64,000 nt of DNA from positions 62,001-126,000 of the forward strand of contig CADCVH010000094.1 of NCBI GenBank assembly GCA_902806085.1, in the 5' to 3' direction. This DNA comes from an uncultured Rubrobacteraceae bacterium (GTDB lineage Bacteria > Actinomycetota > Rubrobacteria > Rubrobacterales > Rubrobacteraceae). Below the pieces are notes generated by a model that saw only the letters and a list, made by a program, of their open reading frames with translations, ran no database searches and was not told the origin of the DNA. The translations under genes were made by a program, and so were the position numbers. Shown here in pieces: positions 3,618 to 58,082 of the stretch. Position 1 is the stretch's first letter, and every line of letters starts with the position of its first letter.

Positions 3618-4484
3618 TCACACAAGCTCGCCGCGCGCCACCATCTGGACCTTGCCGCCGACGGAGACGCCGATCCCGTCTTCACCTCTTTCGGCTTGCA
3701 GGTGCAGGAGGGAGGGGCGTTGGATCTCGTACCCCTGTTCGACCCTCACCTCCACGGAGTCCGTTCCGAGGTAGCGGTGCTCTACGAGGTATCCGGCGAG
3801 GCATCCGGCGGCGCTGCCGGTGGCGGGGTCCTCGGGGACGCCGTCGCCCTCGGCGAACATGCGGGCGGCCAGGTCGTTCCCTTTTTCGTGCGGCTCGGGA
3901 CAGAAGGCGTAGACGTTCTCGCCCTCCGTGTGCCGGACCAGATCAAAGTACCGTTCGCGGTCCACCCGGCAACGCTTCAGGGCGTCGAGGCTCTTGAGCG
4001 GGACCACTATGGCGGGAAGGCCCGTCGAGACCTCCTGGACCGGGTAACGGTCGTCGAGGTCGTCCCTTTCGAGGCCGAGGACCCGGGCCAGGCGGGCGGG
4101 GTCGAGCCTCCGGCCGAAAGTCGGGGGGAGTTGGCGCATCCGGAGGACGTCGCCGAAGGTCACGGGGATCTTCCCGGCCCCGAGGTTGAGAACGATGCGC
4201 CCGGCGGGTTCGGCGAGGATCTCGTTCCGGATGACGTACGCGGTCCCGAGGGTCGGGTGGCCGGCGAATGGTATCTCCCTCCCGGGCGTAAAGATCCGGA
4301 CGTCGTAGCCGCCGTCGCGCTCCTCTTCCGAAAGGATGAAGGTGGTCTCCGAGTAGTTCATCTCCCGCGTTATCTTCTGGAGGATTTCGTCAGACAGTCC
4401 GGCGCCGCCGCGGACGACGGCGAGGGGGTTCCCGGCGTACTTCTCCTCGGCAAAAACATCGACGATGGTGAAGGTGGGGTTCAT
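3618..4484 (-). CDS. PhzF family isomerase/epimerase
   Basis: 288 residues matching the PhzF phenazine-biosynthesis-like family in length and motifs. The N-terminus has YAGNPLAVV, then NYSETTFI with the catalytic-type glutamate, then FTPGREIPFAGHPTLGTAY; the second half contains the glycine-rich DPATGSAAGCLAGYL loop. Family members have two related diaminopimelate-epimerase-like domains and isomerise small metabolites. No phenazine genes are nearby, so this is probably a general metabolic member. The gene starts 9 bp after the M55 peptidase stop, so the two are probably one transcript. Confidence 0.88.
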   Translation of the reverse strand: MNPTFTIVDVFAEEKYAGNPLAVVRGGAGLSDEILQKITREMNYSETTFILSEEERDGGYDVRIFTPGREIPFAGHPTLGTAYVIRNEILAEPAGRIVLNLGAGKIPVTFGDVLRMRQLPPTFGRRLDPARLARVLGLERDDLDDRYPVQEVSTGLPAIVVPLKSLDALKRCRVDRERYFDLVRHTEGENVYAFCPEPHEKGNDLAARMFAEGDGVPEDPATGSAAGCLAGYLVEHRYLGTDSVEVRVEQGYEIQRPSLLHLQAERGEDGIGVSVGGKVQMVARGELV

Positions 4485-4493
4485 GCGCCGCTC

Positions 4494-5333
4494 CTATCCG
4501 TAGTCCGGGTCGCTCGTCGCCATGCGCATGACCCCGATGAACATCTTGAAGGCCGTCCCATAGTCCTCGTGGGCCCACGAGACGCGCCTATCGTCCACCC
4601 GCTCCAGTTGAGGGAAGAACACGACGCCCGCGGCCGTGCTCGCGGTGGCGAACTCGACGGCGAAGGTGTAAGGCGGCCCCGGCGCGTAGGGGACGAGGTT
4701 CCCGGAGCCGCGTGCGGCATCCTCCGCCGCCCCACGGATTCGTCCCAGCGCGGCCCTCTGCGGCAGGCACCGGGCCGTGTAGCGGTCGACGGCGGTCTTT
4801 ACCTGCGCGGTCCGTACGCCGGCGTAGAGGGACCGCGCCTCCTCGCACGTCGGATCGTCGCCGGTGACGAGGCCGACAGGAATCCCGGAGAGGCCCGCTA
4901 GTGTCGCGTTCATGCGGGCCTCGCTGCAAGGCTCGCCGTTCAGTTGGACGTCCGTGACGACGGAGGGGCTGTTGAAGGTGTGGCTCAGGACGCCCTCGGC
5001 GCCGGCCCGGGCGTGGTAGCCGACAAAGCAGGCGACGTCCGAGCCTTCGAAGCCTTGCATCATCGAGAGGGGTTTCCTGGAGCCGACGATGAGCTCCGCG
5101 CGGTCGTCCAGGTCTTCGAGGAGGATGTTTCGCATACCGTCGTGGGCCTCGTTCAGGAGGAACTCCGTCGCGCCGCCTCGCGACGCGCCCTCGATGGCGG
5201 CGTTGACGTCGGCGGTCAGGAAGCGGCGGAATCTTTCGTACTGGGATCGGCCCGGGATCACGTCCTGCGGGTGCGTCACGCCGGTAACGCCCTCCATGTC
5301 CGCCGAGATAAAGACCCTCAACGTGCCCCCCAT
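4494..5333 (-). CDS. M55 family metallopeptidase (D-aminopeptidase DppA-like)
   Basis: 279 residues. The N-terminus has the family signature ISADMEGVTGV, whose Asp and Glu bind zinc in DppA. Further conserved pieces are NEAHDGMRN, the central GYHARAG, SHTF and the LVTGDD segment. DppA-type enzymes form ring-shaped decamers and remove N-terminal D-amino acids such as D-Ala. It is the first gene of a probable two-gene unit with the PhzF gene. It diverges from the small cysteine-rich gene at 5377, with 43 bp between the starts. Confidence 0.85.
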   Translation of the reverse strand: MGGTLRVFISADMEGVTGVTHPQDVIPGRSQYERFRRFLTADVNAAIEGASRGGATEFLLNEAHDGMRNILLEDLDDRAELIVGSRKPLSMMQGFEGSDVACFVGYHARAGAEGVLSHTFNSPSVVTDVQLNGEPCSEARMNATLAGLSGIPVGLVTGDDPTCEEARSLYAGVRTAQVKTAVDRYTARCLPQRAALGRIRGAAEDAARGSGNLVPYAPGPPYTFAVEFATASTAAGVVFFPQLERVDDRRVSWAHEDYGTAFKMFIGVMRMATSDPDYG

Positions 5334-5340
5334 CCGCGTA

Positions 5341-5370
5341 TGTGATCCAGGTCAAAAACCAGTGTACAAT
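5341..5370 (+). promoter_or_regulatory. Promoter with CRP/FNR-like site for the 82-aa gene
   Basis: TACAAT at 5365-5370 ends 6 bp before the ATG at 5377, so the predicted transcript begins at or next to the start codon (leaderless). The -35 zone has no TTGACA; instead TGTGA-N6-TCAAA occupies 5341-5356, nearly the CRP-family half-site pattern TGTGA-N6-TCACA. Regulator identity is not shown by the sequence. Confidence 0.45.
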
Positions 5371-5376
5371 CTATGC

Positions 5377-5625
5377 ATGACCGTGTTTCGCTACGGGCGG
5401 GAGCACTTCGAAGAGGGCGAGTACGTGCGCCGCACGGACGCCGCCCCCGGCGACAACCTCGACCCCGTGGTACGCATCGTCGAAGACCTGGGAACCGTCG
5501 AAATCCCCTGCGGCAAAGCTGACTGCCGCAGCAACTGCCTCGAATACACCGTCCGCTCCTCCCGCGCAACCGACGCCTACGCCCTCGCGGACTGCAAACT
5601 CTCGCCCCTGGTAAGCATCATTTAG
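5377..5625 (+). CDS. Small cysteine-containing hypothetical protein
   Basis: 82 residues, starting with MTVFRYGREHFEEG. The middle carries three cysteines in the spacing C-x4-C-x3-C (IPCGKADCRSNC), and a fourth cysteine comes later in LADC. This could bind a metal or form disulfides, but I recognise no family. There is no Shine-Dalgarno sequence; a TACAAT box placed 6 bp before the ATG suggests a leaderless mRNA. An ATG 4 bp upstream is in another frame. Confidence 0.6.
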   Translation: MTVFRYGREHFEEGEYVRRTDAAPGDNLDPVVRIVEDLGTVEIPCGKADCRSNCLEYTVRSSRATDAYALADCKLSPLVSII

Positions 5626-5655
5626 TCGCCCAACAGTCTGCCTTCGGCGGTTTGT

Positions 5656-5688
5656 CAGCACGCGCCGGCTTCGCCTACGCTCTCAGCC
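5656..5688 (+). repeat. Post-stop dispersed repeat, copy A
   Basis: Contains AGCAC..CCGGCTTCGCCT.CGCT.TC, closely matching the segment just after the GntR stop at 37021-37056. It lies 30 bp downstream of the 82-aa gene on the same strand. See copies at 5790, 17862 and 37021. Confidence 0.45.
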
Positions 5689-5789
5689 TTCCGCCGTGCA
5701 AGGCCCCGCCGGGCAGCGCAAAGCGCGGGTCGGCTCGGGTGCCGGGGGGGCTTACGTGTGCGGACTACTGGCTGAAAGTTCCCGAAAGG

Positions 5790-5823
5790 GACGCGTGCCG
5801 AAAGCCACGAAGCAGCGTGCTAC
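5790..5823 (-). repeat. Post-stop dispersed repeat, copy B
   Basis: Read on the minus strand it begins right at the stop codon of the 183-aa membrane protein and contains TAGCACGC..GCTTCG..GCTTTCGGCACG. It shares the GCTTCG-then-CTTTCGGCACG core with the copy at 17862-17899. Confidence 0.45.
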
Positions 5824-6375
5824 CTAGTAATCGTACTGGTCGTAGGTTCTCTGCTGAGGCTGACGTCCTGCCTCGTAGATGCGCTGGAGGGTGCCGCCTA
5901 TCAGGGGCGAGAGGAAGAGGCCGGCGAGGCCGGCGGGCAGGAGGTCGCGGGCGATGGTCCAGGCTATGAGGAGGCCGACGCCGGGGGCGGAGTGGACGGA
6001 GTTGCGTATGAGCTTCAGCGGGTCCAGGACGCCGCCGGGGGGGAGGATGCCGTAGGCGTAGACGAGCAGGGTGAGAATGCCTGAGATGGTGCCGGTAAGG
6101 AGCGCGAGGGCGAGGCTCAGGACGAGGCGGGAGGCGGATCGTCCGTCCCCGCCGGCGCCGCGGCGAAGCAGCAGGGCGCCGCCGAAGATGGGGGCTGCTA
6201 TGAGGCCGGAGATGAGGCCGACGCCCATGTACACGAGGGCGAGGGTGGTCAGGTCGCCCTCGCTGCTCTGGCCGCCCTGCATGATCAGGAGCACGAAGGG
6301 CTCAGGGAAGAGCGACTTCACGAACATGAAGCCGAACCCGTAGGCGAGCCCTATACCCAGCAGACGCAGGAGCAT
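5824..6375 (-). CDS. Hypothetical multi-pass membrane protein
   Basis: 183 residues with four to five hydrophobic segments (about residues 5-32, 44-72, 83-110, 130-150 and 150-165) and a polar C-terminal tail rich in Gln and Tyr (QPQQRTYDQYDY). I do not recognise the family and see no catalytic motif. It stands alone between the 82-aa gene and the aldehyde dehydrogenase. Its stop codon overlaps the start of a dispersed repeat. Confidence 0.6.
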   Translation of the reverse strand: MLLRLLGIGLAYGFGFMFVKSLFPEPFVLLIMQGGQSSEGDLTTLALVYMGVGLISGLIAAPIFGGALLLRRGAGGDGRSASRLVLSLALALLTGTISGILTLLVYAYGILPPGGVLDPLKLIRNSVHSAPGVGLLIAWTIARDLLPAGLAGLFLSPLIGGTLQRIYEAGRQPQQRTYDQYDY

Positions 6376-37251: not shown

Positions 37252-37671
37252 CTACTGGTACATCTCCCCCACCTTCATCGTGCCGCGCTGGACGAGCTCT
37301 ATCTTGTAGCCGTCGGGGTCCTCGACAAAGGCGATGCGGTAGTCGTTGCCGTCGGCGGTCAGGGTCTTGGGCTCCAAGGTGACGGTTACGCCCTGACCTT
37401 TAAGATCCCCAACGGTGGCTTCGAGGTCGTCCACGGTGAAGGCTACGTGGGCGTAGCCGTTGCCCTTGTCGTAGGGCTCGGCCTGGTCGTGGTTGTGGGT
37501 GAGTTCGAGCATCGGGGAGGCCGGGTCCTCTTCGAGGGCGAAGAAGTGGTTGGTGGCGGAGCCGAGGTCCATCTCGCCGACCTTTTTCATGCCGAGCTTG
37601 TTCACGTAGAAGTCCTCGCTCCTGGCGGGGTCCAGGACGCGGTAGCAGGTGTGGATAAAGGTCGCGGCCAT
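37252..37671 (-). CDS. Lactoylglutathione lyase-like glyoxalase I (VOC superfamily)
   Basis: 139 residues from an ATG at 37671 with GGGAGGAG upstream. Glyoxalase I landmarks: HTCYRVLDPARSEDFYVNKLGM, the zinc-ligand Glu in MLELTHN, GYAHVAFTVDD with metal His, and FVEDPDGYKIELVQ with the last Glu. It isomerises the methylglyoxal-thiol adduct. Actinobacteria often use mycothiol instead of glutathione, so the thiol partner is uncertain. Confidence 0.85.
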   Translation of the reverse strand: MAATFIHTCYRVLDPARSEDFYVNKLGMKKVGEMDLGSATNHFFALEEDPASPMLELTHNHDQAEPYDKGNGYAHVAFTVDDLEATVGDLKGQGVTVTLEPKTLTADGNDYRIAFVEDPDGYKIELVQRGTMKVGEMYQ

Positions 37672-50015: not shown

Positions 50016-50372
50016 TTACCTCTCGCCAGTCTGTTCGCGTACGCCGAGCTTGGCGAGAGCCTCGAAGAACTCCGCACGGAGCTCCTCGAAGCCGGCCTCC
50101 CTTGCCCGGGGGCGGGCGGAGACTACCAGGTCCAGGTCGCTGCCGGGTTCCGGGGCGAGGCTCGCGAAGATCTCACGCAGCCGTCGGCGGAGGGTATTGC
50201 GAACCACCGCGTTGCCGACCTTCTTGGAGACGGAGAGCCCGAGACGCAACGTCCCTAGCTCGTTAGGAAAGGCGTGCACGGAAAACAATTTCCCCCTGTA
50301 GGCCGTGCCCCGCCTGTAAACCCTCTCAAACTCCGCAGAGTCCGTCAGGCGCATACGCTTGCTCCGGGGCAC
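50016..50372 (-). CDS. rnpA: Ribonuclease P protein component
   Basis: 118 residues. The RNR motif region reads LGLSVSKKVGNAVVRNTLRRRLREIF (seen in parts) and the start has RLTDSAEFERVYRRGTAYRG. It binds the RNase P RNA and helps mature the 5' ends of tRNAs. Directly downstream of rpmH, 9 bp apart. No yidD gene lies between rnpA and yidC in the 123-bp gap. Confidence 0.93.
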   Translation of the reverse strand: MPRSKRMRLTDSAEFERVYRRGTAYRGKLFSVHAFPNELGTLRLGLSVSKKVGNAVVRNTLRRRLREIFASLAPEPGSDLDLVVSARPRAREAGFEELRAEFFEALAKLGVREQTGER

Positions 50373-50381
50373 CCGTCAGAC

Positions 50382-50516
50382 TCAGACTGCCAGGCGCTTC
50401 CGCCCGCGCCGACGGCGGGCTGCGATGACCCTTCTACCCCCGACCGAGCTCATGCGATTGCGAAAACCATGGGTCTTCGCCCTTTTACGGCGGTTTGGCT
50501 GGTACGTGCGCTTCAT
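50382..50516 (-). CDS. rpmH: 50S ribosomal protein bL34
   Basis: 44 residues, translated from the sequence: it starts [19 protein letters not shown] and continues with the [12 protein letters not shown] and arginine/lysine-rich end, all typical of L34. GAGGAG lies 7 bp before the ATG at 50516. It is the first gene of the rpmH-rnpA-yidC-jag block. Confidence 0.97.
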
Positions 50517-50770
50517 CAGGCTCCTCTACGAGTGGTTTTAGTATGTACGAGGGATCCGAAGCAGTATATCCGAAGCCCCCACGACCATCCAGCTACCAAC
50601 AGCCCCTCGAAGGCTCGCCTCTCGACGCCGCCCGACGCCAGTATCCTTGGGAAAGTCTTGCAAATCGACGTTTATCGCGACACTGATCTACAGAACACCG
50701 GCATCGCGCGCCCGGCAAAACAGCGGCGTTCCGATCTTCTCTCGGGCCTGGGTGCCCCTTTTTCACAAGT

Positions 50771-50815
50771 TTATCCACAGCCTGTGGATAAACTTGTGGA
50801 TAAACTTGTGAATAG
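50771..50815. promoter_or_regulatory. Upstream DnaA-box cluster
   Basis: Three perfect boxes: TTATCCACA at 50771, and TGTGGATAA at 50783 and 50795, with a degenerate fourth (TGTGAATAG) at 50807. The last three are spaced exactly 12 bp apart. The 370-bp gap between rpmH and the next gene holds nothing else certain. It may serve as a second origin part or as DnaA-controlled promoter DNA. Confidence 0.85.
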
Positions 50816-50887
50816 CCTGCAAAAGCCGATTTCTCGTACGTATGCTATAGCGTTGGATGGAGGGGTAGGTTACATTCCGTTGCGGGG

Positions 50888-51679
50888 ATGATGCACGCAC
50901 AGCGGACACGGACGGAACCGGATCGGGCGGAGATAAGCGCCCGTATCGTCGCGTACCCGTCGGGCGCGGAGCCCGAGATCACCGAGATAGCGGCGGCGGA
51001 TCCCCGCTCAGCGACGATCAAGTTCACGAAGGCCGTTATAGGCCAAGTGCGGGAGTTCGGCGGCGAGGTCCCCGAGGAGGCGGTACGGGAAGTGGTGGAG
51101 AACCTGATACACGCCGAATACCGTGGCGTGGTCGTCTCCATTCTCGACGGCGGAAACGTAGTGAGGGTCTCGGATCGCGGGGCGGGCATCCAGAACAAGG
51201 AGCGGGCGATCGAGTTCGGCTTCACCGGGGCCTCACCCGCGGCGCTGGAGGAGATCAGGGGTGTCGGGGCTGGCCTGGGTATGGCGCGGACCGCGGCAGA
51301 GAAGGCAGGCGGAACCCTGACCGTGGAGGACAACATCGGCGGCGGCACGGTGGCGACGATCTCGGTCGGCGACGCGCCGCACGCGGGACCGGAAGAGGCG
51401 CCGGCCGCACCGCCGCCGACGCGCAAGTACCCGGACGGCGTGCCGCGGATGAACATCTCGGAGAGGCAGCAGAAGGTGCTCATCACGGTTCTGGAATGCG
51501 GCGAGGTCGGGCCATCGACGGTCGCGGACCGGTTGGAGATCAGCGTCAGCACGGCGTACAGGGACCTCTCGGTGCTGGAGGAGCACGGGCTGGTCCAGGC
51601 GCACGAGTCCGGCAAGAGGATCATCTCGCCCCTCGGCAAGGACGTGGTAGAGGCGATAGTAAGCGCCTGGGTAAAGTAG
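50888..51679 (+). CDS. GHKL-ATPase/winged-helix fusion protein adjacent to dnaA
   Basis: 263 residues. Residues 45-160 form a complete GHKL ATP-binding domain: N box EEAVREVVENLIHA (Asn at 72), G1 box VSDRGAGI (96-101), G2 box GVGAGLGMARTAA (125-137), and GGGTVATI. There is no histidine-phosphorylation domain. A Pro/Ala linker (165-180) leads to a C-terminal winged helix (190-260; VLECGEVGPSTVADRLEISV, YRDLSVLEEHGLV). The dnaA ATG is 3 bp after its stop, so they should be co-transcribed, and DnaA boxes lie 75 bp upstream. It looks like a nucleotide-controlled DNA-binding regulator of unknown target. Confidence 0.8.
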   Translation: MMHAQRTRTEPDRAEISARIVAYPSGAEPEITEIAAADPRSATIKFTKAVIGQVREFGGEVPEEAVREVVENLIHAEYRGVVVSILDGGNVVRVSDRGAGIQNKERAIEFGFTGASPAALEEIRGVGAGLGMARTAAEKAGGTLTVEDNIGGGTVATISVGDAPHAGPEEAPAAPPPTRKYPDGVPRMNISERQQKVLITVLECGEVGPSTVADRLEISVSTAYRDLSVLEEHGLVQAHESGKRIISPLGKDVVEAIVSAWVK

Positions 51680-51682
51680 GCC

Positions 51683-53023
51683 ATGGCGGGCCGCGTAGAC
51701 CAGGTGTGGGCCGAGGTATTGGACCGGGCGTCCGAGCAGATAGACGTCTCGTCGCTGAGGGTCTGGTTCGAGGGGATACGCCCGGTCGACATACGGGACG
51801 ACCGGTTGGAGATCTCCGTCCCGAACACGTTCGCCAAGGAGTACATCGAGAGTCGCTTCCGTTCGCTCCTGGAAGAGGTACTGGACTCGGTTATGGGCCA
51901 GGAGAGTTCCCTGGTGGTCACCGTCGGGAGCCAGGACGGGCCCGGCAACGGCGCGGCGACCAGGGGATCCGAACCCGTCCTCAACGCCCGCGCGCCGCGG
52001 TCGTTTAAGGCCAAGTACACCTTCGACACGTTCGTGATCGGGGCCGGCAACAGGTTCGCCCACGCCGCGACCCTGGCCGTGGCCGAGACGCCCGGCGTCG
52101 TCTACAACCCGCTCTTCATCTACGGAGGCGTGGGGCTCGGCAAGACGCACCTCCTGAGGGCTGTCGGGCACTACGTCGAAGACCAGGACCCGAGCATGAG
52201 CATCCGGTACGTCACCTGCGAGCAGTTCACCAACGACTTCATAAACTCGATGAGGGACAACTCTCCCCTGGAGTTTCAGAAGCGCTACCGCGAACAAGAC
52301 GTGCTTCTCGTGGACGACATACAATTCCTGGAGAACAAGGTGGAGACCCAGGAGGCGTTCTTCCACACCTTCAACTCGCTCTACGAGGAGAACAAACAGA
52401 TCGTCATAGCCTCCGACCGGCACCCCAAGTACATACAGACCCTCGAGAACCGGCTCGTCAGCCGCTTCGAGTGGGGCCTGGTCACGGATATCCAGCCACC
52501 GGACCTCGAGACGAGGATCGCGATCCTGCGCAAAAAGGCGATCATGGACCGCCTGGAGGTGGACGACGAAGTCTTGACCTTTATAGCGTCCAAGGTCTCG
52601 ACGAATATCAGGGAGCTGGAGGGAGCCCTGATCCGCATCCTGGCCTACGCCTCCCTCTACGAGCGGCGGGTCAGCGTGGCCCTGGCGGAAGAAGTCCTCA
52701 AGGATATCCTGCCGGACCAGGCGTACCGCGAGATCCCAATAGAGCTTATCCAACACGAGGTCTGCCGGTACTTCGGCATAGCGAAGGCGGACCTCGTCGG
52801 CCAGAGCCGCTCGAAAGGCTTCGCCTACCCGCGCCAGGTCGCCATGTACCTCTCGCGCGAGCTCACCGACGAATCGCTGCCCAAAATCGGCAAGGCCTTC
52901 GGGGGCCGCGACCACTCCACGGTCATGCACGCGACCGCCAAAATCTCCCGGCTTATAAACAGCGACAGGGACGCCTTCAACCAGATCCACGAGCTCACGT
53001 CCCACGTAAAGAGCAAGCGCTGA
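51683..53023 (+). CDS. dnaA: Chromosomal replication initiator DnaA
   Basis: 446 residues. Domain I is at 1-80 and a short linker reaches about 105. The AAA+ domain has Walker A GGVGLGKT (148-155) and Walker [11 protein letters not shown], and domain IV carries the DnaA-box-binding helix [10 protein letters not shown] near residue 415. DnaA-ATP melts oriC and can repress its own gene. Linker domain II is short compared with Streptomyces. It is preceded by the GHKL gene and followed by oriC. Confidence 0.97.
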
Positions 53024-53520
53024 ACCCCTCCCCCCAGGGTAGCAACTTTGTAACAAATACCCGGGCTCCCGACGCCGATCTATCCACACCCTGTCCACAG
53101 CTTCAGGGTTTGCCTGTGGATAACCCCCCCGATACTATCCACAGATCTCGCGACTTATCCACAGAATCTGTGGATAAGTACCGTATTTTGTGGATAAGTC
53201 GTGCGCTTCGGGCGGCTCACAAGAATACCAGTCGTATTTGCTTGTGGATAAACCTGTGGATAAGAGGGGTAAAACCTGTGGATAAGTCTGTGGATAAAAA
53301 TGTGGATAACCTTAGCCTGTGGATAACTCGGCACTTATCCACAATTTATCCACAGGAAAACGCGAGTTATCCACAATTTCTTCCACAGGCGCTACCGGGA
53401 GTAAAGGGCTTAGGTAAAGTGGATTTTGGCGGTTATCCACATATCCACAGGCCTTATTATTATTATTAATCTAATAAAGATATGTTCCAGTAGTAATAAT
53501 AAGGGGAGAAGGGAGGCAAA
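53024..53520. other. oriC: replication origin with 14 perfect DnaA boxes
   Basis: Between dnaA and dnaN. TTATCCACA or TGTGGATAA occurs perfectly at 53115, 53155, 53169, 53189, 53243, 53255, 53277, 53289, 53301, 53318, 53335, 53346, 53367 and 53433. One-mismatch forms lie at 53080, 53135 and 53441, and weaker ones at 53091 and 53379. Several are 12 bp apart (53243/53255 and 53277/53289/53301), placing them near the same face of the helix. Boxes switch from mostly TGTGGATAA to TTATCCACA near 53330. Confidence 0.97.
53454..53502. promoter_or_regulatory. DNA unwinding element with DnaA-trio-like runs
   Basis: Five TTA triplets (53454-53468) begin 4 bp after the last DnaA box with a short GC spacer. 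TAG-TAA-TAA-TAA (53491-53502) faces them from the other side. The 50-bp stretch is nearly all A and T. The layout box, GC spacer, TA-rich trios matches the unwinding module described in Bacillus. Confidence 0.7.
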
Positions 53521-56015: not shown

Positions 56016-56043
56016 ATAAGCCGCAAACCCGCAAAAACTGGCG

Positions 56044-56071
56044 TTGAGATACGCGGGAGTTGTGTTACAAT
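56044..56071 (+). promoter_or_regulatory. gyrB promoter
   Basis: TTGAGA (56044-56049), 16-bp spacer, TACAAT (56066-56071). This gives a leader of about 67 bases before the gyrB TTG. Confidence 0.65.
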
Positions 56072-56132
56072 CTTCGGGTGCAAACCTCTGCCGAAAAGAA
56101 CGGTCTTGTTACTTTCGCGGAACATGAGATGA

Positions 56133-58082
<1,950 letters not shown>

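Follow-up and report, generated by a model that had tools for sequence, protein, structure and literature searches.

GwH, a GHKL–winged-helix protein encoded directly ahead of dnaA in many Actinomycetota, is a candidate regulator of DnaA

Most knowledge of DnaA control comes from a handful of model bacteria, and the gene found directly in front of dnaA in the 64,000-nucleotide stretch of Rubrobacteraceae DNA analyzed here (the window) raises the question of what a protein that joins a GHKL ATP-binding domain to a winged helix–turn–helix (wHTH) does at this position. We refer to this GHKL–wHTH protein as GwH, a name used here. The gene pair, its divergent neighbors, and the domains of GwH lie as follows.

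50888–51679, forward strand: GwH gene, an ORF with an ATG start, 263 aa
51683–53023, forward strand: dnaA, second gene of the pair (Pfam Bac_DnaA, E 4.5e-71; Bac_DnaA_C; DnaA_N)
50382–50516, reverse strand: rpmH, recognized from its translation, the divergent neighbor that bounds the regulatory region
50016–50372, reverse strand: rnpA, after rpmH
51074–51367, forward strand: GHKL ATP-binding domain, GwH residues 63–160 (Pfam PF02518 HATPase_c, E 3e-11, passes the cut-off)
GHKL boxes within GwH: N-box E68-N72-H75; G1 D96-G98-G100; G2 G125-G129; G3 G142/G153
51449–51631, forward strand: wHTH, GwH residues 188–248 (Pfam PF01978 TrmB, E 3e-8, passes the cut-off)

The GHKL domain of GwH carries the pattern E68xxxN72, D96xG98xG100, G125xG127xG129L, G142, and G153, and the winged helix is of the TrmB/IclR type, with a recognition helix that reads S-V-S-T-A-Y-R-D-L (res. 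219–227). An AlphaFold2 model of GwH generated from 79 homologues (mean pLDDT 87) places a β-hairpin and a helix before the GHKL domain and the wHTH after it, with a low-confidence linker (res. ~167–176) between the two; according to both Pfam and the model, this linker and the wHTH are all that follows the GHKL domain. Pfam found no HisKA, HPt, or any further domain in GwH. The sequence-only reading of this locus had described a protein with all GHKL boxes and no kinase dimerization or His-phosphotransfer domain that ends in a DNA-binding fold, a description that holds on every count; across 141 homologues, the boxes vary little or not at all.

Specifically, residues E68, N72, H75, D96, G98, G100, G125, G129, G142, and G153 are invariant across 141 GwH sequences from 24 families, and PF02518 is matched in 79/79 members searched with Pfam. 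These invariant N-, G1-, G2-, and G3-box residues, together with the AlphaFold2 fold and the Foldseek matches, place GwH in the GHKL superfamily. The N-box is MutL-like, of the ATPase-type ExxxN form, with E68 present in 141/141 sequences. The recognition helix follows the consensus S[LV]STAYR[DE]L in most GwH families, with deviations in f12, f20, f37, f14, and f15. Members of f12, f20, and f37 (e.g., L049, L073, L079, and L080) mostly combine long GHKL–wHTH linkers with a diverged recognition helix, and these long-linker lineages are the ones with a strongly diverged DnaA. Its domains and their conservation give GwH the architecture of a one-component regulator, in which a sensor domain is fused to an HTH. 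Judged from the sequences, the nucleotide site of GwH is intact and its recognition helix conserved, and the protein is predicted to bind DNA and to possess ATPase activity.

The association with dnaA is tight. With the last base of the GwH stop codon at 51679 and the first base of dnaA at 51683, the 3-nt gap that had been claimed at the outset is confirmed; the gap measures 2–14 nt in all checkable Rubrobacteraceae, and in every member of the family with both genes on the stretch compared, GwH is the gene directly before dnaA. To follow this arrangement beyond the family, GwH was sought by profile search in 396 Actinomycetota genomes, one per species, and found in 153 of them, including the type strains of Eggerthella lenta, Cryptobacterium curtum, and Atopobium parvulum. 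There are 127 carriers outside Rubrobacteraceae, and DnaA was detected in 116; GwH is directly upstream of dnaA on the same contig and strand in 110 (three across circular contig ends), five have the two genes split between contigs, and one has them divergent but adjacent. The proposed check for adjacency beside dnaA in actinobacterial relatives is thus positive beyond Rubrobacter, in 110/127 carriers outside Rubrobacteraceae, and the outcome named as refuting, a lack of conservation next to dnaA, was not observed. The ORF next after GwH is DnaA-like in 110/118 cases; the gap has a median of 14.5 nt, and some pairs overlap by 4 nt. The short gap is conserved and leaves no room for a promoter between the genes, from which we infer that GwH and dnaA are co-transcribed.

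GwH neighbors rpmH/rnpA/yidC on one side and dnaA/dnaN on the other, and in lineages without GwH, dnaA directly follows the rpmH/rnpA intergenic region. Six genomes seemingly devoid of GwH (four Rubrobacteraceae, two others) also lack dnaA in their assembly, and these absences are therefore read as assembly gaps. In family f15, genome G049 carries dnaA with no detectable GwH beside it and is likely a case of GwH loss. In a member of the Eggerthella family (G399), GwH is inverted and divergent from dnaA while still adjoining it (L076: 2563–3747, reverse strand; 4350–6317, forward strand), a natural case of GwH–dnaA linkage without an operon. Conservation of the adjacency across 24 families rules out an accident or a local oddity and marks GwH as a protein of the dnaA operon. 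A mobile or defense gene was considered and rejected: GwH has no plasmid or phage relatives and is normally single copy. Families are monophyletic in both the GwH and DnaA trees, bar two in the GwH tree. Many deep-branching Actinomycetota, among them common gut genera and bacteria with genomes of just ~1.0–1.5 Mb, have kept GwH in front of dnaA.

DciA (PF05258) is undetectable in 11/11 Rubrobacteraceae tested, and it is likewise not found between recF and gyrB in the window (56016–56144); it is, by contrast, present in nearly all of the Actinomycetota tested outside this family. Replacement of this helicase operator by GwH is ruled out as a general explanation, as most GwH-bearing families have DciA.

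The intergenic regions on either side of the gene pair contain the following elements.

50652–50673, forward strand: operator-like copy 1, AAAGTCTTGCAAATCGACGTTT, a conserved block in the rpmH–GwH intergenic alignment of 23 Rubrobacteraceae
50771–50779 (forward), 50783–50791 (reverse), and 50795–50803 (reverse): three perfect DnaA boxes
50811–50832, forward strand: operator-like copy 2, AATAGCCTGCAAAAGCCGATTT, 159 bp from copy 1 and at −77 relative to the ATG
53024–53520, no strand assigned: oriC, the dnaA–dnaN intergenic region, with 14 perfect DnaA boxes, TTATTATTATTA, and TAGTAATAATAAG

A DnaA-box cluster directly before GwH had also been claimed, and the three perfect boxes at 50771–50803 confirm it. 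They lie 85–117 nt upstream of the GwH start and are fixed at about −117/−105/−93 in nearly all Rubrobacteraceae; the 64-kb window as a whole contains 18 perfect boxes versus 0.17 expected in shuffles. One isolated perfect box is found at 37650–37658, far from the origin cluster.

An element of the form AAnnnnCTGCAAAn6TTT occurs in two copies around the DnaA boxes at the GwH promoter of all 23 Rubrobacteraceae examined, standing as conserved blocks in rpmH–GwH intergenic sequence that is otherwise unalignable. Under the strict pattern, at least two copies are present in 21/23 Rubrobacteraceae versus 0.24 expected. The position of copy 2 is fixed in 23/23, and this copy is the sole exact match to its pattern in the 4.4-Mb genome; the full element pattern occurs in this genome at the GwH locus only and in relatives mostly there. 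The two copies are separated by 127–128, 138–139, 148–149, or 158–160 bp, with a periodicity maximum at 10.5 bp. On the tree, the spacing class must have changed independently at least five times, and every change fits a 10.5-bp lattice (rough p 0.002 from a post hoc test). Such steps would fit a contact, on a single side of the helix, between the proteins at the two copies or between these proteins and the core promoter complex. A sigma-70 consensus promoter was looked for and not found, so the conserved GCTATAGCG is our sole guide to where copy 2 would sit relative to the promoter. Rubrobacteraceae also conserve AGTATATCC at 50563–50571 in the rpmH–GwH interval; it is probably the −10 region of the rpmH promoter on the reverse strand.

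Outside Rubrobacteraceae, CTGCAAA recurs upstream of GwH in families f27 (4/7), f33 (3/3), and f18 (4/9) but is rare elsewhere; among Actinomycetota that lack GwH, only 1/29 regions upstream of dnaA contain it. The element is barely or not detected upstream of GwH in f5 (1/16), f6 (0/5), and f45 (0/5) despite the same recognition helix, so the element may belong to another protein, or the site may have diverged. We did not find a single operator common to all families, CTGCAAA being confined to f1, f27, f33, and f18, and the DnaA box is the only motif that most families share upstream of GwH. In the dnaA–dnaN region (53024–53520), the CTGCAAA operator-like motif is absent, so the main oriC does not contain this operator. 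Because the motif is found in 50517–50887 and is missing from 53024–53520, control of the operon promoter is favored over control at the main origin. Next to dnaN, at 53435–53520, TTATTATTATTA and TAGTAATAATAAG are conserved and resemble an unwinding element with a DnaA-trio.

Our preferred reading, in which our confidence is evenly poised, is that GwH would act as a nucleotide-gated, operator-binding autoregulator of the GwH–dnaA operon. The wHTH, probably as a dimer, would bind the two AAnnnnCTGCAAAn6TTT elements flanking the promoter DnaA boxes, and the GHKL domain would bind ATP/ADP and probably hydrolyze ATP, with the nucleotide state setting a DNA-bound or bridged state of GwH. DnaA synthesis would then follow the energy state of the cell and the level of GwH itself, and co-translation of GwH and DnaA would provide negative feedback on DnaA synthesis. 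We infer GwH as the binder of the element, the nucleotide gating, and the sign of the effect from sequence. Of the two possible signs, repression is favored over activation, given that the regulator is the product of the operon's first gene and that copy 2 is placed at the probable promoter. Its place directly before dnaA and its pairing of ATP-binding and DNA-binding domains make GwH a probable dedicated controller of DnaA and the start of replication. The original proposal of a nucleotide-sensing regulator of dnaA or the origin is upheld in part: the conserved dnaA linkage, the intact GHKL site, the conserved recognition helix, and the operator-like promoter repeat speak for it, and DNA binding, nucleotide sensing, and an effect on dnaA expression or on the origin are predictions.

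A possible alternative, which we regard as somewhat doubtful, has GwH acting directly on initiation, where it would bind DnaA or origin DNA, such as the upstream box cluster, as an ATP-dependent helper or inhibitor of the DnaA–oriC complex, and would be encoded with DnaA for matched supply. Linkage of a single-copy GwH to dnaA in at least 24 families, with frequent translational coupling, is consistent with this, as are the placement of the three-box cluster between two operator-like elements, the persistence of the inverted GwH of G399 beside dnaA, and the standing of the DnaA box as the sole motif common to most families. In the fast-evolving families f12, f20, and f37 (Atopobium and Eggerthella belong to two of them), GwH and DnaA are both strongly diverged, and pairwise GwH distances correlate with those of DnaA (r 0.56, Mantel 0/500); such a correlation is, however, expected from shared ancestry alone, and the conserved non-DnaA element is missing from the main oriC, which argues for the operon promoter as the site of action.

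The catalytic Glu of the N-box invites another reading, as the same ExxxN arrangement occurs in MutL and PDK/BCKDK-type kinases and PDK/BCKDK are among the top Foldseek matches of GwH. GwH could then be a SpoIIAB/RsbW-like Ser/Thr kinase or partner-switch protein acting on DnaA or another protein, the wHTH serving merely as a targeting module, much as, in CapK/CapS, an HTH-bearing GHKL protein acts as a kinase on a wHTH protein controlling the adjacent operon (PMC13373217). We judge this improbable: the conserved neighbors of GwH include no gene for a STAS protein or another substrate, and the Pfam matches comprise PF02518 in 79/79 members, with anti-sigma-type HATPase_c_2 not among them. An orphan histidine kinase is ruled out by the missing acceptor domain and the Glu-type N-box. 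Rubrobacter is radiation resistant, and GwH might also be imagined as a sensor of DNA structure or DNA damage that halts new initiation upon damage. The MutL resemblance of the N-box fits such a role, as does the location of GwH at the origin, where ssDNA first appears, and CapK sets a precedent in sensing ssDNA (PMC13373217); GwH is, however, also retained by gut and oral genera whose lifestyle is not radiation resistant, and we identified no ssDNA-binding feature in it, which makes this reading highly improbable.

We offer a broader proposal tentatively and hold it to be rather doubtful: with GwH as its first member, there may be an ancient class of proteins that regulate replication initiation in deep-branching Actinomycetota. 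GwH would be an ATP clamp in which GHKL dimerization closes a phased loop of DNA that spans the dnaA promoter and the upstream DnaA boxes, coupling energy charge to both DnaA synthesis and origin firing. GwH offers a directly testable link from nucleotide state to replication initiation, with predicted operators and defined sites for point mutation (E68, N72, and the recognition helix).

In its proposed role, control of DnaA or the origin, GwH is comparable to SirA, YabA, Soj, DiaA, Hda, SeqA, CtrA, AdpA, and MtrA, none of which, to our knowledge, has the GHKL–wHTH design. The leading structural match is DIP2311 of Corynebacterium diphtheriae (PDB 3lmm), Foldseek rank 1 (E 1.7e-6) and, among the best PDB matches, the only one whose alignment spans a GHKL-like domain and a wHTH in the same order. 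DIP2311 differs in its 15% identity, its 556 residues, and its inter-domain geometry (rmsd 16 Å). We take it to be a regulator of the AlbA_2–HATPase_c_4–wHTH type, whereas neither AlbA_2 nor HATPase_c_4 is among the Pfam matches of 79 GwH members, and we know of no linkage of DIP2311 to dnaA.

The anti-sigma kinases SpoIIAB and RsbW have a similar element order and a catalytic Glu in the N-box; GwH differs from them in adding a wHTH and in having no anti-sigma Pfam match (HATPase_c_2, 79 members) and no STAS antagonist gene among its neighbors. The catalytic N-box Glu is also shared with the GHL ATPases MutL, GyrB, and Hsp90, and the N-box ExxxN and G1 of GwH (res. 60–105) align with MutL, but GwH is without the S5-like transducer domain or the rest of those proteins. 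Histidine kinases share the HATPase_c fold and are the best generic sequence matches; GwH departs from them in having no HisKA or HPt and in its N-box Glu, a position at which two-component kinases usually have Asn, Asp, or His.

Two systems offer functional parallels. Azotobacter NifL uses a GHKL domain to sense ADP/ATP in the control of transcription, with no phosphotransfer involved (PMC9866876); it differs from GwH in its PAS-H-GHKL layout, in its binding to the activator NifA, and in having no wHTH. In CapK/CapS, GHKL and HTH domains control an adjacent operon (PMC13373217); CapK is an HTH-STAS-GHKL protein that phosphorylates a separate STAS-wHTH repressor, whereas GwH has neither a STAS domain nor a partner gene. 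No Pfam, NCBIfam, or PDB entry describes the full-length GwH family, and searches of open-licence papers for a GHKL protein with dnaA, for genes upstream of dnaA in Coriobacteria, and for locus tags found nothing on it. Nucleotide-sensing GHKL domains, winged helices, and even GHKL–wHTH fusions are already known; what the open-licence literature searched does not describe is a GHKL–wHTH protein fixed in the dnaA operon across a large part of a phylum.
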